Origin: Acholoe squamosa
Taxonomy: Eukaryota; Annelida; Polychaeta; Phyllodocida; Polynoidae
Direction: 5' to 3'
Assembly: GCA_949317995.1 (NCBI GenBank)
Contig: OX439048.1
Location: 65,787,375-65,851,374 of the forward strand
Length of the DNA stretch: 64,000 nt
The notes under the pieces are model-generated. The model had not been told where the DNA came from. It did not search any database and was given only the letters and a program-made list of their open reading frames with translations. The translations under genes and the position numbers were made by a program. Of the stretch, positions 21,831 through 62,639 are shown in pieces; position 1 is the first letter of the stretch, and each line of letters starts with the position of its first letter.

Positions 21831-21925
21831 CAAACCAAACTGCTGGGGATTTTCACACTTTGAATGTATAGTAGTTATATGTGAGTGACCTAACCGGGCT
21901 TTGTATCATATCAAGACCTAGTTCT

Positions 21926-40532: not shown

Positions 40533-43500
40533 TTACCACATGAGGGTGGAAAAGATGAGGAGGGAGTGCAAACATTTTGAAGGACTGTCAAAAGGCTTCC
40601 AGATAGTGGATACAGGTTACAAAGAGGTGTATTGTAGGGAAAGCTACAAGTCAATTCTGGATGAACATGCTAGGAAAAAGATGGATAAGATAGTTTTTAA
40701 GAATAACCATCATAACTTACCAGGGTTAATTAGCCCATTAGTAAAGTCGATGTTTCCTTCTCTAATTCTGTTGATCCTTTGCAAGGACTGATACTTAAGG
40801 GTTTCTAAGGGATTGAATGTGTTTTGTCTATCAGTCCTTATCTATTTGAAGCCCGTTTGTTATTCTAATCCCACCACCCAAACAGCTTACTCTTACCCTC
40901 ACCTAGGGGCCACATCCTGATCCTGTCTCCACTGGATTATTTACTTACCTTACTGACTCTAGACCTACTCACTGAATATGTTTAATCCCTTTGATACATC
41001 ATATAGCCCTCTCAAACCACTCAGAAAGATCAACAATTACCAATTCTGTTGTCAAGCAGTCATGCTCCTTATGATGAAATGTTCAATATCTAAAACCCTT
41101 TGAATAATGTTTTATCACAAATACATTACAAGTAGATCAGGTTTTTGCAGATGTCTGTATGCCTAATAGATTATAGTTTGGTATGTGTTAATGTAGAAGC
41201 CATTGTTCTTAATTTCTTAGATGTGTTTTCATTGTGAATTCCATCACTCCTTGACAGTGGTAATATTTACATAGGTGGTGCCATAGCCATATCACTTTTT
41301 AACTATTTAGCATTTCCCAGCCATAGGACACATCACTAGTAATTTTCAGAGTACACCTGCTATGTGTTGTCATAATTACACTGGGTACCACAAGGACAGA
41401 TGAATAATGATAAATCCCTCTCGTACTTGCCCATTGTAACCTTACCTATCTGTTTGGTTTTTACTCTTGGCCCCCTGGTCTATAAAACATACAGATTACT
41501 TCATTGTGATGTGTCGTTTATTCAGATGATGCAGCGTGCCAGTCATTTAGAAGGCATCTTCCTGACCTACACCCAATGTTCTCATCTTTGGTGTTATAAA
41601 TACATTTCATTCATGGTCCTTGTCATTTGTGCTGAAATAATGTCCACCATTTTCAAGTGACATCAAATTCTGAGAAATGGATTCATAGAGAGCTATTAGC
41701 TATACTCATCATTCCTCACTGGAATACTAAACTTAATTGTAGTGAAGCTGCCACTTTGTACTTTTGTATATCATTGTTTCAGTGGCTCTAGATCTATTGA
41801 CGATAGCATTGAGCAAATACATTAATAGCACTAATACCTGTGATGGAGTCACAAAGAGGCACACCTTTTTGTCATATCATATCTTGCTTAAAGTTGTGTC
41901 CTGAGTAAATGCAAATGTAAATCTCTTGCCTCTGAGGCCTACTCTTTGTAATGTAGCGTCTCAAGGATTCCATTAATGTCCAAACATAGTTTATTATATC
42001 ATTCTCTGACAGTATATTTTTACAGAATATTTATCTTAGCATTATTTACATTGACAGGACTAATTGTCAAAACTTACCAGGGTTATTTTGCCCATTAGTG
42101 AAACCATGATATTTCCTTCATTAAGATTTGCAAGGCCTGATACCTAGGGGTTTTTAAAGGATTTGAGCACCTCAAGGTTTTCTTACTTCCATCTTAGAAG
42201 TATACTTTCATATATTCAATGTGCAGGTCTTGGTCAATCTGTCTCACCCTTGTTTGTTTGATACAATAGACCAACCTACTGTAAACCTTTCTTCACACTT
42301 ATGAACATAACTTACAAATAGATGTGTAAAGGGCCCCTAACTTACAAGATTAAAAAAACTTGATTGATTTTTGAATAAAAGAACTGCTTTGTTCAACTTG
42401 AAATGAGATATTAGACATAGGTTTGTCATTTGATAAACATTCAGTACCTGACCTACTTCTTACCTGACATGTTCACTTGGTAGTACCACTTTAGGTATAT
42501 AGCCACGTATTGTGTTCTAATGGTGGAGACACTAGCTACAAAGCTGTTATTTACATAGTCCATCTTGTTGATAATCTCTCTTTCTCTAGGTAGAGTAGAC
42601 AAGTTACGAGGAAACACTGTGAATGCATGAACATATATGTTCTATTATTCCTTAAATGCGTATATCTCTGTCTCAACTCCATGCCTACTACACCATTTGG
42701 TATTGGAAATCATATATCATATGTACTTGGAGGTCCTTCTAGAATGAGATTCTGCATCTTCATGTTGACACAGGTCATTACAACAATGTGTTACTTACCT
42801 CACAAACTTAGGACAGACCTAGGACTTACCAATACCTTGGTTCAGTACCAGGTAATATGTTATTGTCTTTGATTCGAGGTGAGGGTTTGTTGAAATGTAA
42901 TTGTTTTCACTTTCTAAAGTCCTGCATTTGAGGGTCAGAGGGTGGCATAGATTATCTCACTGATGCGGCAGTTTTCTTTGTGACGTCGAATTGATGAAGA
43001 GAAACATGAAAAGTGCAATTTGGAACAGTCTGTGTGTAAATCATTGCATTTTGTTGTTGTGGTCTATTATTATACTCACCTCAGAATTACAGTTGCACTC
43101 AAATGCACTAAGGTGATTTCTCTGGTTTTTAGTCTTGTCCTCCTGATTGATAAAAAGTACACTCTGACATGCCAATCATTTTGACAATATCTTCCTGATG
43201 TACATAAAACATTTCTCCTTTCCATCTTTAGGTCCTGTGGAGTTGATGTCATATTGTCAAAGAGTGAGGGATCCCAATAAGATTTGAAGGGGCCTATTCA
43301 TACTATCTTGAAAAATGCATTCCTTGGGCAATTCTGACCATTTCTGGCCATTGGCAATGCCATTTGTGATTTACCTACCTTTACAGGTTTTAATTTGAGG
43401 ATGGAAAGGTTGTTACCATCAGTGACACCAGTGTATACATACGGCATCCTTAAACAGTTAATGACACAATGTACGTCTTAAGGATGTGATTTGTGATAGC

Positions 43501-46500
43501 AGCTTGATGGCTGATCCAGATTTACTGATAGAAACATTCTCCAACAGGACAGTGCAAATATGAAAATCCCATATTCTCTTAATGGTCCTGAACTCATTCA
43601 TTGTTAAGAAAAATTGATAAATTACTTTATATTGGGAATTTGTATTGAGGGTTTAGGTTGAGGAAAATTGATGTATTCCTGTTCCTTGATTTCCTATTCA
43701 AGGATTTACAATTTGTTCACTATTTCAATTTGACCATGACCTTCTTTGCACCATGAGGTATATTTAGCAGTCACTCTTTTGTCTTTTTATCCTTGTCTTA
43801 TTTCATCTTACTTAATTGCATTTTGTATCTCGTCAATTGCTTCAAGTATGAAAGTATCCTCAGAAAAGAAAAGCAGAGACACAGAAAGTTAGAAGCAGTC
43901 AATTAATTTAATTGTAATCCTTGTCTTCTGCAAAGAAAGCAGCGTCTTATCACCATGAGGCACTACATCCTTCCACAGCCAGGCATCGAACCTCTCATGG
44001 TTATTTTTACATCATTTGCATCTGGTAGAATTGCTCTTGAAGTCTTTTGATGTTAGTTAATCCTTAATATCTGTTAAACACTCTTACTCTTGTATAGCTG
44101 GCAGCCACTGATCATGTGGAAAGCACACAGCATATTAAGCTATGAGTTGTCAGCTTGTTTGGGGCCATGGATGTTATGTTATATATGTACATGGTGTATC
44201 AGATCAGCTAGCTGTGAAGTTATTGATGTATTATCACATGCCCAGAGCTGTAATTAGTTTAACTAGGAGGATGTTTCTCAACATGGGTATTCAACAAGAA
44301 TTGGAACCCTTAAAGTTGGAGTAGGTGATCCAGAGTAATTTAGTATGACTGATTTGTATTATCAGCATTTAATGTACTAATTGCATAGAGTTTGGTACAT
44401 CAGCCATACCCCCGCAATCATTAGAGCCCACTTGATGCAGGGCTGTAATAGAATTACTGTAAGGGAATCCAATAACATTTGAAGAATAACATCTTGAAAA
44501 ATGAGTACCTAGGGTAAATCTGACCGTTGACAATGCCATTTGTGACAGCTACTTTCACTGGTTTTAATAACTTGAGGAAGGAAAAGTTGTTGCGATTAGT
44601 GACACCAGTGGCGGTAACATATTTTAAAGAATCAAGGACCTATGTGGGTCTTAAATGAGGTTTGTGGTAGCAGCTTAGTGCCGTGTAATGTATTGTTATC
44701 AGAGATTGTTAGATAGCATTGTTTGTTTCCCATATTGATGGCCCCTTATATCAGGAGGCTTTTAATTATAAACACAATGTGTCTGATATACTTACCAGGC
44801 GTGCAGGTAAATGATGAACTTTTCTCCTTTGTTTATGATAGAACTATTTACTTTCCTGATGATTGGTCAGGATTCATTGATAGACATCTACATTCTTTAA
44901 AATAGTCATCACCTTAGTTATTGTTAAGAAAAATTGATGAATTACTTCATAATGGGAATTCGGGTTAAGGGTTTAAGTTGAAGAAAATTGATGTATTCCT
45001 GTTCCATGGTTTCCAATTCAAGGATTTACAATTTGTTCACTAATTCTGGAAGTGATACAATGTCTAGTTGCCACAGAGATGGTTCAAGTAACTTCATCCT
45101 ATCTTCTGAGCTTCTGATTATATGTATTAGAGAATGCAGCTCAGGGGTGCGCTATAAGACTTTAGGTTATCTTATCTGCTTCATTACAAGGTTTAATTAT
45201 TATCAGCGCCTTATAGGGAAAGTAGCTCTGGTAGAGTACTAATGCACCTACTCAATAACCATAAGTCTGTATTACAGGTTACCATTTATTGAACATTCCA
45301 TTTCCAGGTGACATCCAATCCTTATTTACATTGACTCCTGTTGAGGGTTATTGGTATTCACTTTAACCCTTCACATATATGTACAGTTATTTGCATGACT
45401 CCTGATATGATTGTGGTTATGTGTGTGTGTGTGAGACCTCTGCTCGCGATCACCAAGGTTTAAGTAACAGCTTTATCTAACACTCATAATCCTACATAGT
45501 GCTAGTGGTAATACATCTGGTGCACTCTCCTATTGGATTAACTCCGCGAGTATATCGCCCAGTTGCTGACCCTCTAGCTTTGTGTGTTTATCTTACTCCA
45601 CTAATAATATCCTTCTTTATCGCCCTTTATATATATATATCTCTGTCCCTTTACTAGTTCACTATTCCCTTGGTAGGGACCCCCTATGTCTTTGATAATA
45701 CTTTGGCCCAGTTTATTACCTTGGGCCGCTTATGTTGGTATTTTCATGTATTATTATCTTAGCTGTAAGGGGCCTTCTGTTCTATCTTTTGGATAAGCTC
45801 CCTGGTCGGTCGGTGTAGGTGGGAGGGTGCATAGTATATCCTGTTTACATGATTCTTCCAATCTTTACCCATCTCTTTTTACCTTGCAGGTGTGGTTCTC
45901 CCCGGTCGTCTTCCATCTCTATGTTAACCCTTCATGGATCATGCTAACCCTTTATGGATTATAGTCTACACCTATGTACATTATTACTTCTGACACTCAT
46001 TATTTATCACAACTACTCTTATGTGCCCTTGCACAGGGGAATGAGTACAAAATGTTATGTATACTTACCAGACATCGTTTTATGTGTCATATAGGTAACC
46101 TGAATTTGTTTTAATTTCCAACAATGTTGAAACAACTGATACAATCTGACCTTGACTTTCTCTGCAGGCGCCTCTCTGCACAATGAGGTAAATTTACTTA
46201 CCAGACATCATGTTATGTGGGGTATTGTACATCATGTGTGGAAGCAGCATCTGTGACATGTACTGGGAGTAGGGGTCTTAAAATCCCCTGCATTAAGCCC
46301 CCTTTTCGCAGATCTTGTCACATCTGATGTAGTATTATCATAACCTTTGACTGTTAGATAACATTCATATCAACTAAGGTAGAGTCATTGACCTTTCTGG
46401 CTGGTATTTATGATATTCTCAGAGAGACAAATTTAGCTAACCTAGAGGTAGTGGCTTATTTTACTAGGCAGGTCTTACCCTGTGTAATACTTACTTACAG

Positions 46501-47269
46501 GAGTCACCTGATTTGTGGGTTCTCTGGTTCATCTCTGTACCTCATCACATGGTAGTGTTGCTTGACGTAACTATTACAGCCCTTGAATGTCAATGTTGTT
46601 TGACAGTTCTGAACTGAGTTTATAATTGTACTTACTGGGGAAAACAGATACTAGCCAGGCAATTCTGGCAAGAACTTGGGTGAGGAAGGGTCAGTGAGTT
46701 TGATCTAGTTAGAGTCTTATTGTCCCTACCATGTAATAGGTAGGGACAAAACAAATCAGGGTAGTGTTAAAGAAGATTTCCTGTACCTAGGCCATGGGGA
46801 AGTTGGGTCTTTTTGTGTAAATGTTGCGGGTAGCCCCGCTATGGGGTTGGGATACCCACAGTCCAGCGCAGTGGTCTCTGATCAAAATGATCATCTTTCA
46901 GTTTTTTTTTTCTGGTTGTGGCAATACTAGGTGTCCTGACCCAGGGCATGCTAATTGTCTTTGTGTGGGGTTTAGTGTAAATGAGACTGAACACAACTCA
47001 AATATTAATCTTTTAGGGTGAAATAACTTTGGAAGAGTGATTGACAAATGGGGTTATTTACTTAGCATGGGCGCAAGTACAAGACAATTGAAACTTTGCC
47101 CAGCCCTTAGTACTGCTGCACTGACATATATTTCCTCTATAGGGCTAGGGATGAGGTCATGTAACCATTACTTCAAGATATCGGTCCAAGGATGTTAGTA
47201 GTCAGTGAGGTGGTGGATGGGAAACATTGTCAGTCCAGACAATTTGTGAGTGACATCAATCTAAATAGT
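40533..47269 (+). repeat. Super-unit copy preceding the viral insertion
   Basis: The joint before it lacks about 0.2 kb that the previous copy has (compare about 40520 with 32880-33043). From about 42230 it is much closer to 14532-18330 than to the copies at 26.7-40.5 kb, and it shares the 888-bp insertion, so 14.5-24.5 kb and 42.2-58.2 kb are a segmental duplication pair. No supported gene. Confidence 0.82.
45148..46033. mobile_element. Second copy of the TG...CA insertion (886 bp)
   Basis: Same insertion point and same flanking CAGGGG repeats (45142-45147 and 46034-46039) as the copy at 17440. It therefore came by duplication of the surrounding segment and not by a second insertion. It includes the (TG)n tract at 45420-45433. 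Confidence 0.65.
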
Positions 47270-48593
47270 TGTTGGTTTTGTGAATTATTTACAGTGGATG
47301 AGTTGGCAGTGTGCCTGTAAGACATGGAGTGTATGAGTAGGGTCTTGGGGACAGTAGAAGGGGAGTTTCTCCGTTATTACTCAAAAGGGGTATTTTGAGT
47401 CTTTGTGTCAAGATTCAGATAAGGTTACCTACACAGTTACATCAAAGTCCATGTGGGGTAGGAAAGACATGGTTAATAGGGTTTAGACAACAGCTTAACC
47501 CTTGTGTTCTTTTTATGAGTGTTTACCACATGAGGGTGGAAAAGATGAGGAGGGAGTGCAAACATTTTGAAGGACTGTCAAAAGGCTTCCAGATAGTGGA
47601 TACAGGTTACAAAGAGGTGTATTGTAGGGAAAGCTACAAGTCAATTCTGGATGAACATGCTAGGAAAAAGATGGATAAGATAGTTTTTAAGAATAACCAT
47701 CATAACTTACTAGGGTTAATTAGCCCATTAGTAAAGTTGATGTACCTTCTCTAATTCTGTTGATCCTTTGCAAGGACTGATACTTAAGGGTTTCTAAGGG
47801 ATTGAATGTGTTTTGTCTATCATTCCCTATCTATTTGAAGCATGTTCGTTATTCTAATCCCACCACCCAAACAGCTTACTCTTACCCTCACCTAGGGGCC
47901 ACATCCTGATCCTGTCTCCACTGGATTATTTACTTACCTTACTGACTCTAGACCTACTCACTGAATATGTTTAATCCCTTTGATACATCATATAGCCCTC
48001 TCAAACCACTCGGAAAAATCAACAATTACCAGATCTGTTGTCAAGCAGTCATGCTCCTTATGATAAAATGTTTTATATTTAAAACCCTTTGCATAATGTT
48101 TTATCACAAATACATTACAAGTAGATCAGGTTTTTGCAGATGTCTGTATGCCTAATAGGTTATGGAACAAGTGATCAATGGATAATTTATGACGCGTGTG
48201 TGTTAGCAAGGGATAATTACGTCTCACAGAGATACCCCATCATTAAAAAATATCTCTGATGTTTTTTTTTCTATAATGTCAACCTGATCATAAAACAGTG
48301 CATTTTCCTTCATTGTGAAATGTCATTCATTTAGATGATGTGGTGTGTTATTCATTTAGACAATATCTTCCTGATCTCAGCACAATGTACTTACCTACAG
48401 TGTTATAAATAGACTCCATTCATGGTCCTTGTCATATGTGCTGAAACAGTGTCCACCATTGTCTGAGTGACATCAGGTTCTGAGTAATGAATTCACAGAG
48501 AGCTACTAGCTATACCCGTCATCCTTCACTGGAATACTGAACTAAATTGTAGTGAAGCTGCCATCTACTGAGACTTACTCACTTTCAGTTGTC
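47270..48593 (+). repeat. Left 1.32-kb direct repeat flanking the viral insertion
   Basis: From TGTTGGTTTTGTGAATT at 47270 to CTTTCAGTTGTC at 48593 this is the same sequence as 53137-54462, on the far side of the virus. The two copies differ at roughly a dozen places I could see (for example CTCGGAAAAATC near 48008 against CTCAGAAAGATC near 53876, and the lengths of A and T runs). The paralogous uninterrupted locus is about 19567-20893. Confidence 0.9.
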
Positions 48594-48917
48594 TTGCGAG
48601 GGGGCATTACTACTTGCCGCAGTCGCTGACTTATAACTACCTGGGATAGAATTGAATAAATGATTATATGTTCTATGTAAAGGCGTTACATGTTCTTGCA
48701 TTCTGTTTGTATCTGCATGTAAGTACTCAGCAGTATCTACAGCAAATTCATGATCAATGTTGGCCCCCACCCCATATGATTTTACGTTCCCAGTGTTCAT
48801 GACATTGATGTATTGTTCTTCATTGATGGTTAGTCCTTCTGCACCTACGGCCCCATACTTAGCAGTAACCCCTGCTTTGCTTATTTGAAACTTAGTACGT
48901 GCCTTTTTTAGTGTCAT
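48585..48917 (-). pseudogene. VP continuation fragment, cut off by host DNA
   Basis: 110 codons starting at an ATG that overlaps the stop of the preceding VP frame (ATGA). The reading frame is also open upstream of this ATG, back through roughly 48960. That suggests it is the ordinary continuation of the capsid after a frame change around 48930-48960 and not a separate gene. Its final codons and stop (48585-48587) lie in the host repeat: viral sequence ends at 48594. The capsid C terminus is therefore missing. A genuine short overlapping ORF using the ATGA junction is the alternative. Confidence 0.7.
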
Positions 48918-50554
48918 TTCTGCCAGTGTATCAGGTTGGTACCTTGTTCCTTGTACATTAAGCCGGTAATCAAAGTGGCGTAAGTGTCAACACTGTCCAT
49001 TGGCGGATAATCACCGTCCACATCATCCCAAACAAAGAAAGATGCTTGGGGGTTTATCATAAAGTGTTCCACATTTACACCCGCACCTCCAGATATTTCC
49101 TTGGAGAGTGCTTGAAAGTCTGTCATACTCACACCCATTCTCTTGCATCTCATTGTAGCCGCCCTTTCTGACAGCATTGCCTTGTCTGCTTCAGTCATAG
49201 ACATTTGGTAAGCCCAATCAGGTATTACTACCCAAATACTGTCCCAGGTTGCTAGGTAGAATAAGCCCGTGTCATCACCTATTCTAGTAAATGTTATTTT
49301 GCCCTGTCTTTCATCTGCTGTCGGAATTTCAAGTTGATGTCTGAAAGTCTTTGCACAAAACAGGGTATGCTTTTGATTTCTTGGTCTCTTTATTCCAATT
49401 CTTCTTCCAGTCGGCGGAGGCGCTCCAGGCCATCCTCCGCCACCTCCTCCAGCCATGGCAGCATTTCCGGCCTGCCCCGATATACCAGCGTCATTTGGTC
49501 CCTTGCCTTGCCCACTAGGTCCTCCTCTCTTACCATTTGACTGTGCCGGTGTTTGAGGTGGTGTAAGAAGTCCTCTATCTTCAGGTCGCCGGTCTGCCAT
49601 TTCAACTTCAGATGGTTCTCGTTGTCCAGTAGACTCGTCTTCACCCCCTTCAGCCGGTTCAGTCTCTCCGTCTGTTCCTGGATCAGGGTCTCTATCCTGA
49701 ACTCCTTCAGTTCCAAATCTGTCTTCTTCTTCTTGATCGGGGAAGAGTTGTTCTCTTCCTCCTCGCTGTCCGACCAGGTTATCACTCGCTCCTTGTTTGG
49801 ATCGGCGGGCCTCTTCTTCCCTCCGTTCCAACTCTTCGTCGGCCTTGAACCTTGCTGCTCTGTTCCTTTCTCGTCTCTCTTCTTTCTGTCTTCTCCTCTC
49901 TGTTCTTCTGTCTTGTCGAAAGTCAAAGATAGATTTACTCTTCTTGAGGTTACTGGTGAGGCGCCCTGTTCGCGAGTCTCTGTGTTTTTCCTTGGTAGAG
50001 GGGTTGTTGACACGGTAGACTTTCTCTGCGGCAACGACTGAGTTGTCTCGTCCCTCTGCTGGCAATTGAGAACGAGAATTGATTAGGTCACTGGGGACTT
50101 GCTTTCTAATAACCAAGTCAGACAAATAATTTGTGGCAAAGTCAAATTTTTCTTTTAATGTCATTAATCCCATGCCTAAATTGTCCCAAAAATCCTCTGC
50201 CACACCGAAATGTTCAGCCATTTCTCTATCTGCATCTGCAGTATGTACCCCTGCTTGTCCATATCTTATGTCATGTGTTCTAGCCCATTTGTCAAAATCG
50301 TCCACTGGTTCGACCCCCCCTGCCAATTTAGATTTAATGTCAGTTCCTGGTCCCGCGTAACGGTGACCCGGAGCATGTATACCTTCCCCTGTGTTTGCCC
50401 TGGCTTGTTCCTTAATCTGAGCTATTTCAGTATGTAATTCGTCTTCCCGCTTTCTTATTTCAGCCTCCCTTTGTAAATCTCCGACTCTCCGAACCAGTGT
50501 TTTCTCTTGATATAGTTCTGCCAATTCGGCCAAGTAATGAGCAATGTCCGCCAT
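48914..50554 (-). pseudogene. VP: Parvovirus-like capsid protein VP, N-terminal and central part, with PLA2 domain
   Basis: 546 codons from an ATG with a strong context (A at -3, G at +4). Residues 66-71 are YAGPGT, matching the calcium-binding loop of parvoviral phospholipase A2. ARTHDIRY at 91-98 holds the catalytic His-Asp pair, and an ADADRE acidic patch follows at 106-111. In parvoviruses this VP1-unique domain breaches the endosomal membrane during entry. A strongly charged, low-complexity stretch follows (about 190-340), then a glycine run at 369-374, as often found before the capsid core, and the beginning of the core. The frame ends at TGA 48914-48916, well short of a full jelly roll. 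The capsid-like sequence appears to resume in another frame just downstream, so this is a broken gene. Confidence 0.85.
49390..50034 (-). CDS. Overprinted ORF inside the low-complexity part of VP (214 codons, no ATG)
   Basis: A second minus-strand frame within VP is open from a stop at about 50090 down to 49390. There is no ATG in its first 180 codons (the codon at 50032-50034 is TTG), so translation would need splicing, a non-AUG start or a frame change. The product would be hydrophilic and charged: SDSEEEENN next to a KKKK cluster (nuclear-signal-like), then a leucine/glutamate/arginine-rich region suggestive of a coiled coil, and an acidic C terminus. Purine-rich VP codons reduce stops in other frames, so an accidental ORF is possible. 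Several parvoviruses do encode accessory proteins overlapping VP or NS. Confidence 0.3.
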   Translation of the reverse strand: MPQRKSTVSTTPLPRKNTETREQGASPVTSRRVNLSLTFDKTEEQRGEDRKKRDEKGTEQQGSRPTKSWNGGKKRPADPNKERVITWSDSEEEENNSSPIKKKKTDLELKEFRIETLIQEQTERLNRLKGVKTSLLDNENHLKLKWQTGDLKIEDFLHHLKHRHSQMVREEDLVGKARDQMTLVYRGRPEMLPWLEEVAEDGLERLRRLEEELE

Positions 50555-52824
50555 TGTTGTGTACCTACCTCGTTCTCAAACAAGTACTCGTCCCATGTGA
50601 CCCACTTGCTAATCGGTGGCGCCGCCTGACGGATCCGCTTGAAATCAATCCCCTGCCGCCTCATCCTCTCTGTGCCAAAAGCAAAGTCACCTGGTTTACT
50701 GCCACTTCCACTCCAAACCATAGAGTCCTCATCAGAGCCATTGTACAACACCCTGTAGTCGTCAGTTGTCACAATGTCATTATGCCACAGTCGCATGAAG
50801 TCTACTATATATGTAATCAGTGCCTCTATTGGTCTAAGTCTTTTTCCCCACCCTCTTTCGTCATTGTCGTGCACTATGCAGTACTCTAGTGATCGCTGTT
50901 CAAGTGTTCTCAAGTCCCTAATGAACCATTTTCTGGTCTCTTCATTAGAAGGCAGACCATGGCTAATTAGAGCACATCTCCAGTACGATCTGTCACTGTC
51001 GTCATTGTTTGGGTCATAGGACACTCTCCATCCTTTGTAATAGACGTCATAGGCCATTGATGGACCTTCTTCATCCGTCACCCTCATCCATTCTACTATG
51101 GCCTCTTCGTAGTCACCCTTCCAAGCTGTACCTCTTTCCCTTCTATGTGTTTTTTTGTGCCAATTGGTCACCTTGTGATCCCACCTTGTTTTCACTACAC
51201 TTCCCTCCCTTGGAACTAATATTCCACTGCACATTCTTGACTTGAATATGTCACTTTCACTACTGTCACTGTCACTACTGTTTTCTGTCGACCAAATGTC
51301 AGGCCTGTACTGGCTCACTAACACGTTCCACATGCATGGGTTCAGGTTCTTTTGGAATTTGGTTTCCCTGTTTTCATGTTCTGTGCTTCGATCAAAGTTA
51401 AAGACGTAGCTGCGTCTTCTAATTGCTTGCTCATTCCCTCTATCTAGCCACCATGGTGCCCTGTTTGTAGTCATGATTACCGGTGTTCTTGCGACTAATT
51501 CCTCTCCCTTGTTCTTAATTTTTACTTTTGCTACATCCCCCCCACTGATAAGTTTGAACCTTTCTATCGTGTTGGGACCTATTGTGGGTTCTTCGCATAT
51601 GATCACATCTTTGTCAACGCAGTCCTGAAACCCGAATGCACTGTTTTCCTCAGGTTGCATTTCCCCCCACGCGCTGTACATGTCTCTTATGCTATTGCAT
51701 ATCATAGACTTTCCTGTCGATGTTCTACCCCACATTATGAATGTGTTGGTTCCTTTCACCTCCTTGTTCAAAATTTTGACTAGTTTTTCTACAAAATTTT
51801 GAGGATCTATTCCCTGATATTCCAGTAGTTCATGGAATTTCTGAACTGATTCATCTGTGCTATATGTGTCTGCGTCCCCGTCCCAGTCTTTCACTACTAG
51901 TCCGTCCAGTCTTTGTTTGAACCCTATTCTTTCTATTTCTCCTCTAAGTGAGTTAGCTGCTGCCTCTACATACTTTCCCCATTTGTGGTGCATCATCAAC
52001 ATTGTTACCTTCATGTTGTCACTTTTTCTGAGCTGTCTTTTAATGTCATGTGTGTTATAACACCCTGTCTCAGTCATGAATTTTTTCAAGTAGTCAATGT
52101 TTTTCTGGTCTTTCAAAGCAGTCTTACTTTGGGGTGATTTTTGTGTACTACTTTGGGCCTCTTTTGGGATTTCTACAGTTGGAGCATATTGGTCAAGTAA
52201 ATCTGGTGACTTACGTAATTGCTGCACTATCTTGAGGAAGATGCCACTTGCGAATACGATTTCCTTCCTGGGCTTGTCGGCGTCACCCTCCTTCAAGTTG
52301 TAGTAGAGTAAACCCTCTGGATTACGCACCATCTCCGGCCACCATGCTGCCATCTCTGGAGAATCCGTCTTGTAGCCGTGGTCGTTTTGTATCTTCGGCC
52401 AAATCCTCTTCAGGAACGAATTTTGTTCCAAGCTGCTCGGATAGTGTTTCTTCGCAATTGTATGCAGATGCGGCGCGTTCTTGTATGGACTTGCATTCTG
52501 TCCACGTCCAGAACACTGGTCCCAGGTGATCAGCATGTCGTTTCCGGCTGCTCCTTGCGTCATACTTTCCTTGGTGTAATAGGCTACCATCTCCTGCATA
52601 GTGTGTCTTTTGCTGGTCGACCATGTCTTTGTTTCCTCTGTTTCGATCATAGTCTTTGCGTTGAAACATTGGATTGCGTGTTCGAGTCCGGTGGACCACG
52701 GGTATACACTAGTCCAGTATCCGTAGTCAGACTCACCCGATAACTTCGCAACGATCGTCCCGTCCTCACCAGCCTCAGTATATTCCAACGGTGGATCCTG
52801 GTTAAAGGCAAGTTGGAACGCCAT
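50455..52824 (-). CDS. NS1: Parvovirus-like NS1 replication initiator (HUH endonuclease, SF3 helicase)
   Basis: In parvoviruses NS1 nicks the terminal origin, stays attached to the 5' end and unwinds DNA during rolling-hairpin replication in the nucleus. From the ATG at 52824 the frame is open for 789 codons. The frame also runs 8 codons upstream to a GTG at 52848, but the ATG has A at -3 and G at +4 and is the likelier eukaryotic start. Numbering from the ATG: HLH metal-binding motif at 119-121; candidate nicking tyrosine in YYNLK at 174-178; Walker A GRTSTGKS at 366-373; Walker B VIICEE at 407-412; B-prime loop KLISGGDVAKVKIKNKG at 424-440; motif C PVIMTTN at 448-454. The C-terminal 300 residues are tryptophan-rich with no domain I know. 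No stop or frameshift interrupts it, unlike VP. The last 100 bases overlap the VP start. Confidence 0.93.
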   Translation of the reverse strand: MAFQLAFNQDPPLEYTEAGEDGTIVAKLSGESDYGYWTSVYPWSTGLEHAIQCFNAKTMIETEETKTWSTSKRHTMQEMVAYYTKESMTQGAAGNDMLITWDQCSGRGQNASPYKNAPHLHTIAKKHYPSSLEQNSFLKRIWPKIQNDHGYKTDSPEMAAWWPEMVRNPEGLLYYNLKEGDADKPRKEIVFASGIFLKIVQQLRKSPDLLDQYAPTVEIPKEAQSSTQKSPQSKTALKDQKNIDYLKKFMTETGCYNTHDIKRQLRKSDNMKVTMLMMHHKWGKYVEAAANSLRGEIERIGFKQRLDGLVVKDWDGDADTYSTDESVQKFHELLEYQGIDPQNFVEKLVKILNKEVKGTNTFIMWGRTSTGKSMICNSIRDMYSAWGEMQPEENSAFGFQDCVDKDVIICEEPTIGPNTIERFKLISGGDVAKVKIKNKGEELVARTPVIMTTNRAPWWLDRGNEQAIRRRSYVFNFDRSTEHENRETKFQKNLNPCMWNVLVSQYRPDIWSTENSSDSDSSESDIFKSRMCSGILVPREGSVVKTRWDHKVTNWHKKTHRRERGTAWKGDYEEAIVEWMRVTDEEGPSMAYDVYYKGWRVSYDPNNDDSDRSYWRCALISHGLPSNEETRKWFIRDLRTLEQRSLEYCIVHDNDERGWGKRLRPIEALITYIVDFMRLWHNDIVTTDDYRVLYNGSDEDSMVWSGSGSKPGDFAFGTERMRRQGIDFKRIRQAAPPISKWVTWDEYLFENEVGTQQWRTLLITWPNWQNYIKRKHWFGESEIYKGRLK
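52322..52669 (-). CDS. Candidate NS2-like ORF overlapping the NS1 N-terminal region
   Basis: 115 codons from the ATG at 52669 in a frame different from NS1. The open frame extends upstream to a GTG at 52699. The product is rich in Arg, Lys and Asp and has no motif I recognise. Many densoviruses encode a small NS2 overlapping NS1, reached by leaky scanning or splicing. A separate ORF (52647-52859) begins at an ATG 35 bases upstream of the NS1 ATG. Both are uncertain, since compositional effects in NS1 can keep a second frame open over this length. Confidence 0.22.
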   Translation of the reverse strand: MFQRKDYDRNRGNKDMVDQQKTHYAGDGSLLHQGKYDARSSRKRHADHLGPVFWTWTECKSIQERAASAYNCEETLSEQLGTKFVPEEDLAEDTKRPRLQDGFSRDGSMVAGDGA

Positions 52825-52934
52825 GTTCTGAGTGCGGCTCGTTCCCACGATCGTAGCATGCTTCTAAGACCGCGTTCTTCCCCCCTGAAGTACGATTTCG
52901 GGAGAAAGCGCGGACCTCGGTGTAAGCCTTGTCG

Positions 52935-52945
52935 CTGATTGGTCC
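52935..52945 (-). promoter_or_regulatory. CCAAT box upstream of NS1
   Basis: On the minus strand GGACCAATCAG lies 110-120 bases upstream of the NS1 ATG, at a promoter-like distance. No clear TATA box lies between it and the gene. Confidence 0.3.
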
Positions 52946-53013
52946 ATTCACACCGTCCATACTTGAGATCTTATCGCTCCCTTATCTAATCCTGCTAGGT
53001 CCAAGTGGTGGGT

Positions 53014-53066
53014 TCAAGTAGGTACTTGACTCTGAAAGCTATAGTAACAACATCCCTCATAGCTTT
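53014..53066. repeat. Palindromes at the NS1-proximal end of the viral insertion
   Basis: TCAAGTA-GG-TACTTGA at 53014-53029 is a perfect palindrome with a 2-base centre. AAAGCTAT (53035-53042) and ATAGCTTT (53059-53066) form another with a 16-base loop. Parvovirus genomes end in inverted terminal hairpins, so these may be a remnant. They are far smaller than a complete terminal repeat. Confidence 0.35.
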
Positions 53067-53136
53067 ATGAAATTGGTAGTTGTAGCCAGCTGGGATTTCC
53101 TTATCTCCACAAAGTAAACATTATCGGTCGGTCCAG

Positions 53137-54462
53137 TGTTGGTTTTGTGAATTATTTACAGTGGATGAGTTGGCAGTGTGCCTGGAGGACATGGAGTGTA
53201 TGAGTAGGGTCTTGGGGACAGTAGAAGGGGAGTTTCTCCGTTATTACTCAAAAGGGGTATTTTGAGTCTTTGTGTCAAGATTCAGATAAGGTTACCTACA
53301 CAGTTACATCAAAGTCCATGTGGGGTAGGAAAGACATGGTTAATAGGGTTTAGACAACAGCTTAACCCTTGTGTTCTTTTTATGAGTGTTTACCACATGA
53401 GGGTGGAAAAGATGAGGAGGGAGTGCAAACATTTTGAAGGACTGTCAAAAGGCTTCCAGATAGTGGATACAGGTTACAAAGAGGTGTATTGTAGGGAAAG
53501 CTACAAGTCAATTCTGGATGAACATGCTAGGAAAAAGATGGATAAGATAGTTTTTAAGAATAACCATCATAACTTACTAGGGTTAATTAGCCCATTAGTA
53601 AAGTTGATGTACCTTCTCTAATTCTGTTGATCCTTTGCAAGGACTGATACTTAAGGGTTTCTAAGGGATTGAATGTGTTTTGTCTATCATTCCCTATCTA
53701 TTTGAAGCATGTTTGTTATTCTAATCCCACCACCCAAACAGCTTACTCTTACCCTCACCTAGGGGCCACATCCTGATCCTGTCTCCACTGGATTATTTAC
53801 TTACCTTACTGACTCTAGACCTACTCACTGAATATGTTTAATCCCTTTGATACATCATATAGCCCTCTCAAACCACTCAGAAAGATCAACAATTACCAAT
53901 TCTGTTGTCAAGCAGTCATGCTCCTTATGATAAAATGTTTTATATTTAAAACCCTTTGCATAATGTTTTATCACAAATACATTACAAGTAGATCAGGTTT
54001 TTGCAGATGTCTGTATGCCTAATAGGTTATGGAACAAGTGATCAATGGATAATTTATGACGCGTGTGTGTTAGCAAGGGATAATTACGTCTCACAGAGAT
54101 ACCCCATCATAAAAAATATCTCTGATGTTTTTTTTTTTTCTATAATGTCAACCTGATCATAAAACAGTGCATTTTCCTTCATTGTGAAATGTCATTCATT
54201 TAGATGATGTGGTGTGTTATTCATTTAGACAATATCTTCCTGATCTCAGCACAATGTACTTACCTACAGTGTTATAAATAGACTCCATTCATGGTCCTTG
54301 TCATATGTGCTGAAACAGTGTCCACCATTGTCTGAGTGACATCAGGTCCTGAGTAATGAATTCACAGAGAGCTACTAGCTATACCCGTCATCCTTCACTG
54401 GAATACTGAACTAAATTGTAGTGAAGCTGCCATCTACTGAGACTTACTCACTTTCAGTTGTC
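53137..54462 (+). repeat. Right 1.32-kb direct repeat flanking the viral insertion
   Basis: Repeats 47270-48593 beyond the virus and then continues past GTTGTC into CATGAGTAAACAG, as the uninterrupted paralog does at 20893. The viral sequence joins it at TGTTGG, where only one or a few bases match the corresponding upstream host sequence. Confidence 0.9.
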
Positions 54463-55956
54463 CATGAGTAAACAGAAATACAGAAATGCTTTCACAAACC
54501 TCTGGATTGTAGTAAAATGTATTTATTTGACAAAAAAAACTTCTAATTTTCAAACCAGACATATGTGACAGTTTCTGTGTAGAACATATCCTGTATCTAG
54601 ACATCCATAAAGTGACTGCCTTCCATCAAACCATACCGTATGACAGAGGATGAAGGAGAAGATGTCAGCAGTTTACCTCTGCGAAGACTGCGACAGAACA
54701 TTTAAAAGGTGTGTAAGAGTGACACAAGTAGAACGATAGTGCAACGTAAGGAGGGTGGGTGGTGTCACCTAGCCCAAATTTTTTAATATTATAAATCTGA
54801 TATATACCAATAAATCACTATCAAGCTTACAACGCTCTAACTCAGATGAAGTAGAAGTTAAAAATACTGCCTATTTCTAGTGAAACGTTAGAGTGACGTA
54901 ATGATTAATTTGTGGTGAATAATGTAAAGTATAAAAAGCATATATATGACTGTGATACTTTTTTTGTAATACTTAATTAGGGGATTACCACGGTTATGTA
55001 ACCTCTTATTTGATCTAATTGGGAGATTGTTGACCCCACCTTAAGGTCAGAGTCGGGTTTACTAATATTCAAAAGGGATGAGTGTGGAGATGATGTTGGA
55101 TGAAAGAGGGTGAAGCAAGCAAGTGGTTGAAGTAAATGAGAATTTTTTTCTCAGTATTTGCTCAGTACCACCACTGCACATGATGTTTTATTATTATTAA
55201 TAAAAATACAGCGCCCGTCTTGGCTTGGCTTGCTTTGAATGTGTCTCACGGTTATGGCACATGGCGAAAAAAAGATGCGCCCGGACCAGGACTCGACCCG
55301 CCTAACTCCATCGGCTGAGCGCAATGTGCTAACCACTAGACCACCGCGTCTCCCTCTACAGCGCCCGGCCTGACTCGCTTTGGTTTGAATGCTTCTGCAT
55401 CTTGCGGTTATGGCAGCGGACAGCCCGCCGTTATGCGAGCAGTAGCGACAAAGCTGGGGGGTCACAAACCAGACTGCTGGAGATTTTCACACTTTGAATG
55501 TATAGTAGTTATATGTGAGTGACCTAACCAGGCTTTGTATCATATCAAGACCTAGTTCTAGCCAACCACCTCTCGTCAGTCAGTGCATAGGAAGTTGGAT
55601 TTGGGATCTGAGACTGCAGGTTCGGGCCCTGCCTTGGCCATGAAATTTTGTGGGTTTTTACATGTAACATATGACATGTAGGGACATATAAGGTGTGCAG
55701 GTTATTCATGGATAATGGCACAGGGTGCCTGTTATCCTTGGATAACCGCATCATGGTGTGCAATATCGAGAGGTATGTGCATGGGAATATCCAGGAAAAG
55801 CACTCAGAATCCCAGAAATCGTGAAATAACAGTGGCTAACACCAAGCAGGCAGATAGGTATGCTCTCATACATCTCTGGATGACAATGTCATGGATAATA
55901 ACAACCTTTTAGTTCCATGCCTTTGAGGATCATAAGATGACTTCACTTACCACAAT
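54463..55956. repeat. Block U, proximal part (second copy)
   Basis: Collinear with 20894-22323. It holds the second copy of the half zinc-finger ORF (54650-54739, shortened by 12 bases), the tRNA-Glu-like SINE head on the minus strand (55277-55350) and the second tRNA-like fragment (about 55561-55650). Compared with the first copy it has about 80 extra bases at 55172-55255, containing another ACAGCGCCCG...CGGTTATGGCA module. The same module is at 55356-55413, so the SINE region has a repeated flank. Confidence 0.75.
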
Positions 55957-58200
55957 GACTGGAGACCATACTCAGGTTTTGTTCAAGACAGATGTTTATG
56001 AAAGAAGATTTTTTACACCGTTCGAGATGACGTTATCTAGAATAGCTCAACATGCTTTAGTCAGAGATTTGAGTATCATAAGGTGACTTTGCCTACATTC
56101 CGGAACATAGCTAAAATCCAGAATGAGATACTGCATCTTCATAGGTCATTATAAGAATTTGTTACTTACCTTGCTAACTCTGGACACACCAAGGAATTAT
56201 TGATGCTCTGGTTCAGTGGCAGGCAATGTGGTATGGATGAGATTTTTGAGAATTTGAAAGGTTTCTGCATTGTAGAGTCAATTAATTATTTATTTCACAA
56301 ACCACGGGGATATTCTTTTCTCAGGTTCATATATAGAATAAATCCACCCTTCTATTATCCTACATGTGAGGGTAATAGGATGGCTTTCCTAATTTCTCAG
56401 ATGTGTTAACATTGTGAATTCCATCACAAATAATAATTAATAATTAATTAATAATAATGAATTTACATAATAAACCACACCTCTTTATACTAATAAAAGG
56501 GTATGTCTACTTACATACAACTGATAAATTTATACTTCAGTGAATTCTTTAAAGCGGCGTTGTTAAAACAAAATGTTCATAAAGACCTCAATTCATTAAA
56601 AGACTATTTACAGATGTTTTCTAAAGAGAAACAAATAGGAGTATCAATTTCAACTTGTCCTCTAAAAAAAAAAGGTATACAAATGAGGTCAAGGTCACCT
56701 GTGACATCATAGGTCAAGGGGGTGTGGCCTATTATGCAAATGAGGTCAATGGTCAAGATTGCCTGTGACATCATAGGTCAAGGGGGCGTGGCCGATTATG
56801 CAAAGGAGGCCACGCCCCCTTGTGATGTCACAGGTCACGTGACCAAATGGAGGCCTCTGATTGGCTGCAGGTCGAGTGAGTAATAAACAGTACTTAACTA
56901 TAGTCCCGTTCCGATACATACTATACTACCTTTCTCAACATGCTTTCTCAAGAAGATTAATTTTGAAGTCCTCAAAGTTGGAGTAGGTAGTTCTGACCAT
57001 TCATGACTTACCTACCTTAACTGGTTTTATCTCACGATTCAGGCCCAACAGATTGCCTTTTTGGTCATAGCCCCGTTCCATTATCGGGGTTTAACTGCAC
57101 TCTGAGACTTCAATTATTTTTCCAAGACCATCTTGGGTACGAACCTGGACATGTTAATAAATGAGAGAAGTATACAATGTCACCCTCTCCATTCATTTCC
57201 AGTTAAAACCGTTGAAGGCTCTATACGGAATCTATCCCCGGCCGCTGTGGCAGGAGACAAGCTCGCTGTCCACTATACCAAGCTGACTGGTGCTAGAAAC
57301 CAATGTACATGAAGGATTTGAAAAAGTTGTCCGACATACCTGATGTTTACACACCTCATTAGCATAGAATCCAATGGTGGAAGGTGGAGTTATTATTAAC
57401 AGGGAAACGTCCTAAGATAAACTAGAGCAACATTCCATGCCTAATTTCTCCATTTTCTTATAAATAAATAAGAATCCAATGATTTTCCATAGCATTATGT
57501 GTCGGCACCCGCCCAGGCCTGCTCGGCCTGTATCTGACCTAGTTCTTACATCTGGGCACCTCCCCGCTTCATCAACAAGACAGAATGGCTGTGTGTGTTG
57601 GATTGCTATGGAAAATCAATGGATTCTTATTTATTTATAAGAAAATGGAAACAAAATGTAGGTGAACACCAAATGCTTGGATTCTACCCAAAAAGTGTTT
57701 GGAAAGACAAGGATATGATGGGTGGAGTAACAACAATTGCTACGGTGGCTTGGCAAACCGTGCGGATCGCATGCACTTACAAAATGTCTTCTCCTACATT
57801 AAATACAGGGTTATAAGGTAAGAAATTAATACAAATTGGATGAATAGGTGTGATAAACGCATTAATGCATGGATAACCTAGGACTCGGTGAGGTTTGCTG
57901 GAAATATTTACCCTCCCGCTGCACGGTCGGGCGAATATTTCCAGCAAACCTCACCTTGTCCTAGGTTATCCATACATTAATAGCTTATTAACTTCTGGAT
58001 CGAAAAGTTGTAACCATTTGTGACATCCTTTAACAGTCAATGGTACAATGTAGGTTTAAGGATAAAGACTATGTTCTGGAATATGGTTTCTTGAGGTCAG
58101 TTCATGTAGGTTATTCATGTGGTTTATGATAGCAGTTTGATGCCCTGCCTTTTTTGTCAAAGGGATTGCTAGATATCATTGATTATTTGTCACATTCGTA
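55957..58200 (+). repeat. 2,259-bp type repeat, dispersed third copy
   Basis: Collinear with 22324-24560 with several indels: one palindrome module is duplicated at 56696-56760, and short deletions occur near 57510 and 57672. It contains the CRE/GC-box cluster (56690-56935), SINE head (57219-57290) and the two inverted repeats (57449-57649, 57863-57979). At the right end it continues into sequence that the tandem copies have lost. Confidence 0.85.
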
Positions 58201-58578
58201 TTACCAGAAATTATTTGCGGATAAATGATAAATGTTTCTTCTTTGTTTATGTTAGAGCTATTTACTTTCCTGATGATTGATCAGGACTCATTTATGGAGA
58301 TCTTCTTGATCAGTACAGTGCGAAATACCCATATTCTTTAAAATTGTCCTGAACTCACTCATTGTTAAGAAGAATTGATAAATTACTTCATAATGGGAAT
58401 TCAGGTTGAGGGTTTAAGTTGAAGAAATATGATGTATTTCTATTCCATCTATTCCTACAATGTTGAAATCCTTGTCTTATTTCATCTAACCTTATTGCAT
58501 TTTTGATCTTGTCAATTGCTTCAAGTATGAGAGATCCCTCAGAATAGAAAGTCAGAGACACAGAAACTTTATAGAAGC
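58201..58578 (+). repeat. Old diverged copy of the super-unit family
   Basis: CTATTTACTTTCCTGATGATTG, the AAGAATTGATAAATTACTTCATAATGGGAATTC-like stretch and the TCCTTGTCTTATTTCATCT...CAATTGCTTCAAGTATGA stretch match about 17130-17260 and 16085-16145 with many substitutions. The match stops inside CACAGAAA...AGAAGC, where the LTR begins. Confidence 0.7.
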
Positions 58579-59124
58579 TGTAACGGGCAAGCTTATGCGC
58601 TACCCTACTGTTCTATAATAATAACATATGTTCACTTTGATAATATCTTATCGACCATTAATATAAATACGGGTACTTATCAGTACCAACCGTTATCATA
58701 TGTTTAACAACCGTTCAGGCGCTAAGCCTGTTATGTAAGAAGATTAATATCTGCCGGTGCGGTTCCCGCCATTGCTAATTACAATCCAAATGTTAATGAT
58801 ATCACGTGTTTATGAACCTACTATATAAAGGACCACATGTCCCTAAGAGAGAGAGTGTGTCTTAGGCACTAAGACCTCTCACACCTCCATACTATATCCA
58901 ATATCTGTTAAAACCTACTGTCTATACCTAGGCAGATAGAGTGATACGGTATTACCTTTATAGTATAGATACACGTTCACTTTGCTATTGAACCAAGCAA
59001 CCCATGTTCAACAAATTAATAAAGCTTCGGAAACTCTAAGTTCCTTGTGTTGTTGTCTCTAAGTATCGGAGTCGCATAGACAGATAACCTGACAGGCTTA
59101 CCGACGGGTGGCCCGACGGTTACA
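58579..59124 (+). repeat. 5' LTR (546 bp)
   Basis: Begins TGTAAC and ends GTTACA, a perfect 6-bp terminal inversion of the TG...CA type. A TATA box (TATATAAAG, 58822-58830) and a polyadenylation signal (AATAAA, 59018-59023) divide it into U3, R and U5 at normal spacing. The partner LTR is outside the window, so the borders rest on termini, signals and the adjoining primer-binding site. Confidence 0.85.
58822..58830 (+). promoter_or_regulatory. TATA box of the LTR promoter
   Basis: TATATAAAG, about 190 bases before the AATAAA signal in the same LTR. The position fits the U3/R boundary of an LTR promoter. Confidence 0.65.
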
Positions 59125-59125
59125 C

Positions 59126-59140
59126 TGGTGCCGTGACCAC
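59126..59140 (+). other. Primer-binding site
   Basis: TGGTGCCGTGACCAC starts two bases after the LTR end. TGG at its start pairs with the CCA tail of a tRNA, as expected for minus-strand priming. I cannot name the tRNA with certainty. Confidence 0.7.
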
Positions 59141-59208
59141 TGAAACTTACCTGATAGCACAGGAGTCGTATTCTTAGAACTAACCAAGTTTATGTGTCAA
59201 TATGGACC

Positions 59209-60009
59209 ATGTCCGAGGTCTTTATAAATCGATCTTTTACATCTTTCGGACAGTGGAACTCCTCATTTGATAAGAGACAATCTGCTTTAGACGTAGCACG
59301 ATCTTTCACAAGTAAACAAGGAAACCAAGAAACCGATCCACCGGTACCGGTACCTAGACAGATACCATCTCAGACAGAGGGATTAATTGCTACCGACCAG
59401 AATGAGACCGTTATCAGTCAGGGACCGCAGTTACCGGCAGACAGACGACAGGCTCTTAACCATACAGAGGTTAACACTCCACACTTCCTCGATAATCTTA
59501 GTAACGCTGTATTCGAAATACAGGGTACTACATCGACTCCTAATGTGAGAAGAAGGGAAGTGGAACGTTAAACTCTGAATCAAGTACCTATCGATGATAG
59601 TAGTACTTTAACCATGGTAACACCTGTGACAGAAACTCTCAGTGATACGGAGATTAACCGCTTTTTGGATGTTAAGCCAAAACCTGCGGGACCCGGTCTA
59701 TTTGGCAAAACACCTACCAAAGCTCCTTTTGGGTTACCTTTAGACGAGTCGGTAGTTGGTCAAATGCTGGACAAAGATTTCCTAGTGAAACTGAAACAGT
59801 TGAAGAAAGCAAGGGCTGAGGTTGTAGAGTTAGAGAAGAAAAAGACCTCTCTGAACTCAGACTATCTAGAACAATCTAAGAAACTATCGGAGAACTCAAC
59901 CGATATGGCTGCTAAATCTTTTGAATTGAAAGAAATACAGCAGAAAGGTGCAACTACACAAGTTCAGCTAAATGAGCTTTTACAAATGAATGAGCAGGTA
60001 CCCAGGTAG
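59209..60009 (+). pseudogene. gag: gag, N-terminal part, with an in-frame stop
   Basis: From the ATG at 59209 the frame runs to TAA 59569-59571. The same frame is then open to 60009, with a second ATG at 59614. Residues after the stop include a proline/glycine-rich stretch and then a heptad-like, Lys/Glu/Leu-rich segment (roughly codons 200-255) that looks like a coiled coil, as in many Gag proteins. A TAA in place of CAA would explain the break. The frame ends where a foldback element is inserted, so the rest of gag resumes near 61198. Confidence 0.6.
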
Positions 60010-61197
60010 CAAAGGTGGTGTGGCCCTACTGTGGCCCACACTTTATTTGGTGTGGCTTCCAATGTGGGCCACAATGGGCAAACCGATGGGCTGCTGACAG
60101 TTTCTGTCCTCAGTGAGGTGTGTGGGCCACACCGGGCTAAACAATATGGGCACAGATCAGTCTCAGAGTGGGTTTGGGTTCAACATTGGTTTTTGATGTG
60201 GCTGAAAGTGGGCTGCCCACTTTGATCACAAGGCACCATCTGGTCAAAATTTATCATTTTGGTGTCAACATGGGTTTTTGGTGTGGCTGAAAGTGGGCTG
60301 ACCACTTTGATCAGGTGGCGCCATTTGGGATAGATATTATAGACAATCTATTTTGTCCCCATTTTCTAAAATTTGGAACCCTGGGAATGCTCGGCTAGCC
60401 TCCAGGTGCTAGCCCCTCCCCTTGGCCTCCATAGTTGGAGGGAGACTAAACATACTGTATTACTCTCCCCATCATCATAATACAGTAGAACCATCAATTC
60501 AAACTTAGTTGGCCAAGGCATATCAACCAGACCTAGTCCAGTAACATGCTAGCCTTCAAGTTCATAGTGCCTCCCAATGGGTAGCATACTTCAATATAAA
60601 ATGATTACCACAGGAATGGTGTAGTCACATTAAAAGCTGCTGACATCACCTAACTTTGCACATTTCAAATGTGTTTTGCCAGTAGATCCAAAGTCTGGGA
60701 AGATTTGTGTACTGTTATGATTTATATGATTTATTAGCTTATTTCTGTTATATCATACTAAAGAAAATCAATACTGTCATGGGGGGAAAGCTGTACATCA
60801 GACATAGTGGGGTCATCTAGTGTCAAAGTTCAGAACTCCCAGCTCAGTATGCCTTGTGCAAACCCATCCTCAACCCTGTCTGGGGAATTATCTTTGGAAC
60901 TGATCTATGCTTGATTCGGGATGCCGACCTTGAAACCAATCTGTGCCCAAAGTGTTTGCCCATTTTGAAGCTTCTCTGTGCCCAAATCAGTTAGCCTTAT
61001 GTGGCCCACACAACTTGCTGAGGACAAAAACTGTCGGGAGCCCAACAGTCTTAGTTCAGTTTGCCCTATCAGGGCAACCCAATATGGCCCTGACTGGAAA
61101 CCAACCATTTGCCCAACCTAAAACCATGAATGGTATTCTGCCCACTTTGAACCAGCTTATCTGAATTGGCCCTAAGCGGGCTTGCTACAATCTATGA
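60010..61197. mobile_element. Foldback (MITE-like) element inserted in gag
   Basis: About 1.2 kb with no retrotransposon coding sense. Left part 60085-60157 and right part 60976-61050 are diverged reverse complements, sharing GACAGTTTxTGTCCTCAG and TGTGTGGGCCACA. Many short GTGGCCCAC motifs recur. A direct repeat of about 80 bp (GTGTGGCTGAAAGTGGGCTG type) sits at about 60182-60253 and 60267-60330. The exact ends and target duplication are not clear. ORFs within it (60031-60225, 60905-61108, 60943-61164) are not genes. Confidence 0.6.
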
Positions 61198-62317
61198 AAC
61201 TGAACTTTTGAGTGACGCATCGGCGGTAGATCTGCAACGGCAAATTTTGCTGAACCAGATTTCCGATAAACCGAATGCACATGCTGACTCTAGTAGTTCT
61301 ATGAAAACTGGAAGGGGTTACTCAGTAACCAATCGGGTTTGAACAAAGGAAATGAAAATTTCCAACGAACCTTGAACAATACCATCCCGAAGTATGACAA
61401 TACTTTTGTGTACCACCGCTCCAAAGATACGAATGGGATTATCTCCTGTAAAACAGGAGAAAATCGGTACTACCTGAGACCCTGACGCTGCAAAGCCAAA
61501 GGCTCTAAAAGTGAAACCTTTTACCGGCAATCCACCTTGGCGAAAATGGCTGTTTCATTGGCATAACGTTAACTTATCCAATGGAGCCAATGATCGCCAA
61601 GCACTAATGTTGCTGAAGGAGGCATTAGAGGAAGGACCCGGCCAGCTGGTCATCTGAGCCTTTGAGAAGAATGGTGACGGTACCCTGCATGGGTTGATAG
61701 AAACCACCACCCATCTTCTCGTTAAAGTAGGTGAGGAAGACCCAGAGGCCCTCTTGTACAAACGGACTCAGAAACCTGAAGAAGGGACCAGAGTCTTTGG
61801 TTTCACGATACAATAACTTGTTTCTGAACTATATGCCGGGTGCCAACCAGACGTGCCCGTAGTAGTTCAGGAAGCTACCACCTGATTTATAAATGGGCTA
61901 AGGGACCCAGGTTGTCAACAATATCTTAAAGATAAATGGCAGCCTGAAATTAGTATGTCCGAACTGTTTGATTTCCCACACTAGGGGCGGTGGCCGCTGT
62001 AGCATTGACCGATAACCCACCAAGAAGGTATCGGTATTGCTGCTGTTTAAGCCCATAAGAAGGGAAAAGAAGCTGAACAGTCTCAGAAGATGCTCAATGT
62101 TAGTTCAAATGCCGAAATAGAAACTTTGGTAAAAGAATTAGTAGCAAATCAGGTGAAGAAATCAAATACCGGTAAGAATTCTCGAAAGGAATGGAAAAAG
62201 AAACAGACCTGTCATCGGTGCCAGGTCTTGGGGCATATCGCACCTGATTGTCATGCCCCAGCTCCGGTTCCTAAAGAGGATTCAGTAACCAAACAGGGGA
62301 CAGCTCAGGAAAACTAG
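61198..62317 (+). pseudogene. gag: gag, C-terminal part, with CCHC zinc knuckle and many stops
   Basis: One frame carries gag-like sequence throughout: a PPWRKWLFHW-type core segment near 61530 and a zinc knuckle at 62210-62251 with spacing C-x2-C-x4-H-x4-C, preceded by a lysine-rich patch. This part binds the RNA genome in virus-like particles. In-frame stops sit at 61340, 61373, 61475, 61655, 61814, 61883, 61982, 62000, 62006, 62048 and 62315. No frameshift is needed. Most stops are explained by C-to-T change of CGA, CAA or CAG. Confidence 0.75.
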
Positions 62318-62639
62318 AGTGGGGTGATATTAATGACATAGTATCACCCCAAACCTGAGTAAGCCAAGCCAACACAATCGGTGGTGAGACAATAGTGGTT
62401 GCTAACCCAGTTGACAGTGTTTTAACATGGCCTGATCCACCTCCAGGGGACACTATCAACGGGACCAAGCTAATTAGAGCTGGGTAATGAGTAGTCATGG
62501 GCCCACACTATTTCACGGATAGGTGGTGTCGACATCTCCCCTGACGACCCACGTTTTCAGTATCTGAAAATTATAGGGGTCGCTCAGAGAAGCGGGGATA
62601 TTGAAACAATATCAACCGGGAAGTGCACCCCATTACAGG

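Follow-up and report, generated by a model that had tools for sequence, protein, structure and literature searches.

A parvovirus-derived insert between two copies of a 1.3-kb host segment, with a virus-free paralogous site in the same window, in the annelid Acholoe squamosa

A stretch of 64,000 nucleotides from the polynoid annelid Acholoe squamosa (assembly GCA_949317995.1, contig OX439048.1, positions 65,787,375 to 65,851,374 of the forward strand; hereafter the window, whose own numbering is used throughout) contains a 4,543-bp insert derived from a parvovirus, with its genes on the minus strand. It is very probably a real and young endogenous parvovirus fragment. The insert lies between two copies of a host segment, here called B, while a second copy of the host locus in the same window carries B once and no virus. 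Endogenous parvoviruses in themselves are an ordinary and well-known kind of find; what gives this one special value is that a virus-free site is paired with it and that a long direct repeat flanks it. Neither this virus-free copy nor the flanking duplication of 1.3 kb had been noticed in the initial annotation of this DNA. The features that define the arrangement are as follows.

48594 to 53136, minus strand: parvovirus-derived insert (borders by host self-comparison; only self-match by blastn)
47270 to 48593, plus strand: left copy of host segment B, 1324 bp (alignment)
53137 to 54462, plus strand: right copy of host segment B, 1326 bp (alignment)
19565 to 20888, plus strand: single B of the virus-free paralogous site, continuous with segments A (to 19564) and C (from 20889) (alignment)

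A longer host segment occurs twice in the window, as S1 (14225-24562) and as S2 (41920-48593 together with 53137-58202), and the virus is present in S2 only. When S2 is aligned to S1, the part left of the virus runs to 20888 and the part right of it restarts at 19565. The two alignments overlap, and B therefore stands on both sides of the virus and only once in S1, so that the order is A-B-virus-B-C in S2 versus A-B-C in S1, exact to the base. The borders of the insert are equally exact: in the comparison with the virus-free copy, host homology stops at 48593 and restarts at 53137, and B directly abuts the virus on both sides, with no host base in between. As expected of an endogenous viral element, host DNA is joined to both sides in the assembled sequence and a comparable virus-free site is present, although this site is paralogous, not allelic. 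No second copy of the insert was found in the window by blastn, and tblastn of NS1 and the first piece of VP against the rest of the window gave only three 13-residue matches to NS1 at E 8.3, which is chance level.

The parvoviral ancestry of the insert is secure. Its gene content comprises an intact NS1, a broken VP and a short upstream region.

50458 to 52824, minus strand: NS1, 789 codons from ATG, intact, with a superfamily 3 (SF3) helicase at residues ~322-484 (open reading frame (ORF) list, Pfam, PDB matches, motifs)
48917 to 50554, minus strand: first piece of VP, 546 codons, with a phospholipase A2 (PLA2) domain; its start lies within the 3' end of NS1 (ORF list, Pfam)
48594 to 48986, minus strand: second piece of VP, in another frame, cut off by the host junction (frame analysis)
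52825 to 53136, minus strand: sequence upstream of NS1, without a significant hairpin

NS1 is open from the ATG at 52824 to 50458 over 789 codons with no stop, in agreement with the initial annotation, and matches Pfam Parvo_NS1 with an E value of 7.5e-22 (78 bits, cutoff 20); it thus carries the helicase by which Parvoviridae are recognized. The best solved-structure match of the helicase is 1u0j ('DNA replication protein', E 5.4e-14 over 161 query residues), followed by 1s9h ('Rep 40 protein', E 5.5e-14), both of which we take to be Rep40 of adeno-associated virus 2 (AAV2). Helicase motifs are present as the Walker A sequence GRTSTGKS at residue 366, EEP at 411 and TTN at 452. Candidates for HUH-type nuclease motifs are HLH at residue 119 and YYNLK at 174. 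Among 20,000 shuffles of the first 300 residues, however, a histidine-hydrophobic-histidine triplet arises in 1,592 and any HxH in 4,375. The initial claim of a retained HUH motif is therefore weaker than put, as HLH is common in shuffles and lacks Pfam or PDB support. An AlphaFold model of residues 1-240, made with no alignment, has a mean predicted local distance difference test score of 35, too low for a usable fold.

The first piece of VP matches Pfam Phospholip_A2_4 (E 1.4e-6). A single frame change lies somewhere in 48917-48986, beyond which the second frame is open up to the junction and meets its stop 9 nt past it, in host DNA; VP thus has both a broken frame and a truncated end. Neither piece matches any solved capsid by sequence, and the second piece has no Pfam or PDB match. 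The exact borders, the open NS1, the Parvo_NS1 match and the frame-changed VP bear out the initial description of an endogenous parvovirus-like element with an intact NS1 beside an already broken VP, to which the truncation at the junction is now added.

We found no terminal inverted or direct repeats at the two ends of the insert, and no unusual folding there: the folding of three 150-nt stretches is equalled or exceeded by 79, 13 and 86 of 200 shuffles. End hairpins were therefore rejected, and hairpin terminal repeats, a feature of Parvoviridae, are missing from the insert. Their absence would be expected had the ends been lost, and our claim is accordingly of a truncated endogenous derivative and not of a full member virus. 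What is present resembles a parvovirus genome minus its ends. Endogenous copies of infectious hypodermal and hematopoietic necrosis virus are likewise without hairpins, according to the available part of PMC11357303. The GC fraction of the insert is 0.459, versus 0.36 in the satellite array at 1-15505. Its observed/expected CpG ratio is 0.64, compared with 0.15 in that array, 0.40 at 15506-26734 and 0.55 at 54463-64000; this contrast with the host is not strong everywhere and gives weak support for a recent integration.

Because the order is A-B-virus-B-C in one copy of the locus and A-B-C in the other, duplication of B at integration is the simplest reading of the site, and we put about even chances on a recent integration that duplicated its target in this way. 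In such an event the far end of B would have been nicked or broken and then extended onto viral DNA, after which synthesis would have rejoined the chromosome 1.3 kb upstream and copied B a second time. By analogy NS1 would be the natural candidate for the nickase; ordinary break-induced replication could serve equally. Part of the right B may afterwards have exchanged sequence with neighbouring repeats, and later VP would have undergone one frame change, with NS1 staying open mainly because little time has passed. For adeno-associated virus (AAV), Rep has been proposed to duplicate the target by nicking and template switching (cited in PMC2900306). In the sources as far as they are accessible, AAV proviruses at AAVS1 resemble the insert in that a target duplication is reported there and a flanking direct repeat is seen here, and the helicases are related SF3 enzymes. 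AAV, however, uses known Rep-binding and nicking sites at its target according to the same sources, whereas a counterpart for NS1 at the insert would be hypothetical, and the terminal repeats are missing. For an AAV-like target duplication, then, the flanking direct repeat is in place, and the differences between the copies of B are equivocal on whether it was made at integration.

The closeness of left and right B, with 8 differences over 1323 positions and two gap events that both lie in or beside runs of A or T, speaks for duplication of B at integration. The way in which the copies pair, together with other observations, weighs against it. The left B differs from the virus-free B at only 4 of 1324 positions and the right B at 8. 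In six substitutions and two indels the left B agrees with the virus-free copy and not with the right B; left and right agree against the virus-free copy in just two columns, and in both, judged by a further repeat copy, it is the virus-free copy that has changed. The flanks are unequally diverged from the virus-free locus as well (35/5337 on the left, 65/3670 on the right beyond B). At the two host sites DNA folding does not stand out, being equalled by 25 and 74 of 200 shuffles, and NS1 residues 1-240, the presumptive nuclease domain, have no supporting Pfam or PDB match. Five of the eight differences between left and right B fall within 187 columns (47847-48033 and 53714-53900). In this patch the right B has the base of two of three other aligned repeat copies and the left B that of the virus-free copy; the third repeat copy (32785-33686) sides with the left B at four of the five sites, which again does not favour later exchange with the repeats. 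Either gene conversion of the right B from such repeats or an origin of the right B in another unit would explain the patch. Outside it, the two copies are separated by only three substitutions and two indels.

The same numbers are open to the reading, tentative in our view and yet a serious one, that the virus was captured where two repeat copies rejoined, one broken after B and the other before B with the intervening DNA lost, or that a repeat-derived circle already carrying the virus entered the array by recombination at B. In that case the direct repeat would represent an old divergence between units and not a product of integration. This would fit a left-right difference in B (8) that equals the right-virus-free difference (8) and exceeds the left-virus-free one (4), as well as the unequal divergence of the flanks, and repeat arrays are in general prone to unequal exchange. 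It would require, however, two breaks in register or a prior circle, and it sits poorly with the few differences left outside the 187-column patch. Moreover, S1 and S2 are the only places in the window with the beginning of C (20889-21612 and its counterpart), so that a third unit carrying it is missing here, although such units could lie beyond the window. An artefact of assembly, by misjoining of two molecules in a repeat region or by chimerism of free virus with host DNA, is improbable. The region is highly repetitive: of five ungapped pairs of successive units in the array at 1-15505, whose unit is a 2,641-bp satellite, four show 1-2 differences over 2641 sites and the fifth is out of register. 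Against this, both junctions are clean, the window runs on for 48.6 kb on the left side and 10.9 kb on the right, and an artefact would need two virus-host junctions abutting both ends of one host segment; that units so nearly identical were kept apart suggests long and accurate reads.

The other host copy, with 35 differences over 5337 sites on the left, carries no virus, and the insertion should therefore be younger than the split between S1 and S2, unless S1 lost the virus. Such a loss, in which S1 became virus-free through recombination between two copies of B and had not simply escaped the virus, would count against duplication at integration; it is unlikely, since a B left by excision should begin with left-type sequence and end with right-type, whereas the virus-free B is the reverse, right-like at its start and left-like further on.

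A recent insertion also bears on the state of NS1, for which the initial annotation had offered either recency or retention for a reason. We modelled neutral decay with 4.7% of weighted substitutions giving a stop in NS1 and with gap events and substitutions in the proportion seen in the host, 15 to 112. The probability that NS1 is still open is then 0.66 at 0.13% change per lineage, 0.38 at 0.3% (half of the left-right divergence of B), 0.14 at 0.6%, 0.05 at 0.9% (half of the right flank's divergence from S1) and almost zero at 2%. With neutral probabilities of 0.05 to 0.66, an open NS1 beside a VP with one frame change needs no selection; recency alone suffices, and retention for a reason finds no positive evidence. 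We consider it very improbable that selection for a host function, such as antiviral interference or service as a source of small RNAs, has maintained NS1. An intact NS1 beside a broken VP would fit such selection, and intact or expressed endogenous NS or Rep genes are on record in the accessible parts of PMC9707805 and PMC2987831, but within the age bounds neutral intactness is unremarkable.

Two further frames overlap the viral genes.

52325 to 52699, minus strand: candidate NS2-like ORF, 125 codons from GTG, in another frame inside NS1 (shuffle tests)
49393 to 50034, minus strand: 214-codon ORF with a TTG start (230-codon frame) overlapping VP, probably a by-product of local composition

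The stop-free frame inside NS1 (52708-52325, 128 codons) was still open in 19 of 5000 local synonymous shuffles, and a run as long appeared in 13 of 2000 whole-gene shuffles. It has no Pfam match above cutoff. An NS2-like gene overlapping NS1 is thus a candidate, from among several frames tested. The frame overlapping VP was reached in 4 of 2000 whole-gene shuffles but in 356 of 5000 local shuffles, and an accessory gene there was rejected.

The iteradensovirus-like lineage proposed in the initial annotation is unproven, although the features behind it, a monosense NS1-VP order and a PLA2 domain in VP, are both present in the insert. They occur in Densovirinae and in Iteradensovirus without being exclusive to them, and also fit many Parvovirinae. 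Monosense order is found in many Parvovirinae, and Iteradensovirus has a PLA2-bearing VP and an NS1-overlapping frame; the insert has the first and a candidate for the second. The portion of PMC9707805 at hand gives PLA2 for all Parvovirinae genera but two, and that of PMC6631224 describes Iteradensovirus as monosense, like the insert, and as grouping with ambisense densoviruses. The insert differs from the genus in having no terminal repeats and in VP pieces that match no solved capsid. In a collection of viral contigs no relatives were found with NS1, its helicase part, its N-terminal part or either VP piece as query; three of these scans gave 5, 5 and 6 pattern matches, none upheld by tblastn. 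Neither the helicase motif pattern nor a PLA2 pattern with standard spacing had any match in these contigs. A PLA2 pattern with the insert's own spacing had one (L001:5240-5331, on a 102-kb contig), which may be chance.

Endogenous densoviruses and parvoviruses of invertebrates (for example those in the accessible parts of PMC5013282, PMC6880638 and PMC13055364) resemble the insert in that an NS1, and in many cases also a VP, has become part of an animal genome; some are near-complete and some adjoin transposable elements or repeats. The insert differs from them in its long flanking duplication and paralogous virus-free site, neither of which is described in those parts. Vector integrants of Junonia coenia densovirus in Sf9 cells likewise place parvoviral DNA in non-coding or repeated host DNA; according to the portion of PMC5978394 available, they are scrambled and their NS proteins seem not to drive integration, whereas the insert, to judge from its gene order, is collinear. 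No report of long duplications or direct repeats around endogenous parvoviruses was found in the literature, in a search that covered part of the papers listed and few subscription journals; the passages on target site duplication that were found concern, as excerpted, RNA virus elements or a geminivirus-like transposon.

The host surroundings are repetitive. The flanks of the insert are a segmental copy, part of which (for example 47587-48163) has 96% identity to the 2,641-bp satellite, and the earlier placement of the element inside satellite DNA is roughly right in this sense. Within the S1 region, 22324-24475 and 24583-26734 form a recent tandem duplication (6/2152 differences), whereas the corresponding stretch of S2 is single in the window. 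At 59158-64000 there are broken frames that look Ty3/gypsy-like by eye, with a zinc knuckle and reverse transcriptase motifs. Five host ORFs, three of them from this last region, gave nothing above cutoff in Pfam, and the whole window had no Rfam match at gathering thresholds.

Endogenous parvoviruses are widely reported, with flanks that are often too short or too decayed to show the route of integration; most genomic cases in the survey PMC5013282, in its accessible part, are at the ends of scaffolds shorter than 10 kb. Here, both junctions and a virus-free paralogue in one 64-kb window allow integration with duplication and rejoining of repeat units to be compared directly, and the site illustrates that domestication need not be assumed where NS1 is intact and the VP next to it broken. 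It is a doubtful but consequential extension that integration driven by Rep or NS1 with a long target duplication is an old property of parvoviral NS1 and not a peculiarity of AAV. If it were true, repeat arrays would preserve the A-B-virus-B-C order beside virus-free copies, and the mechanism would be readable from genomes.
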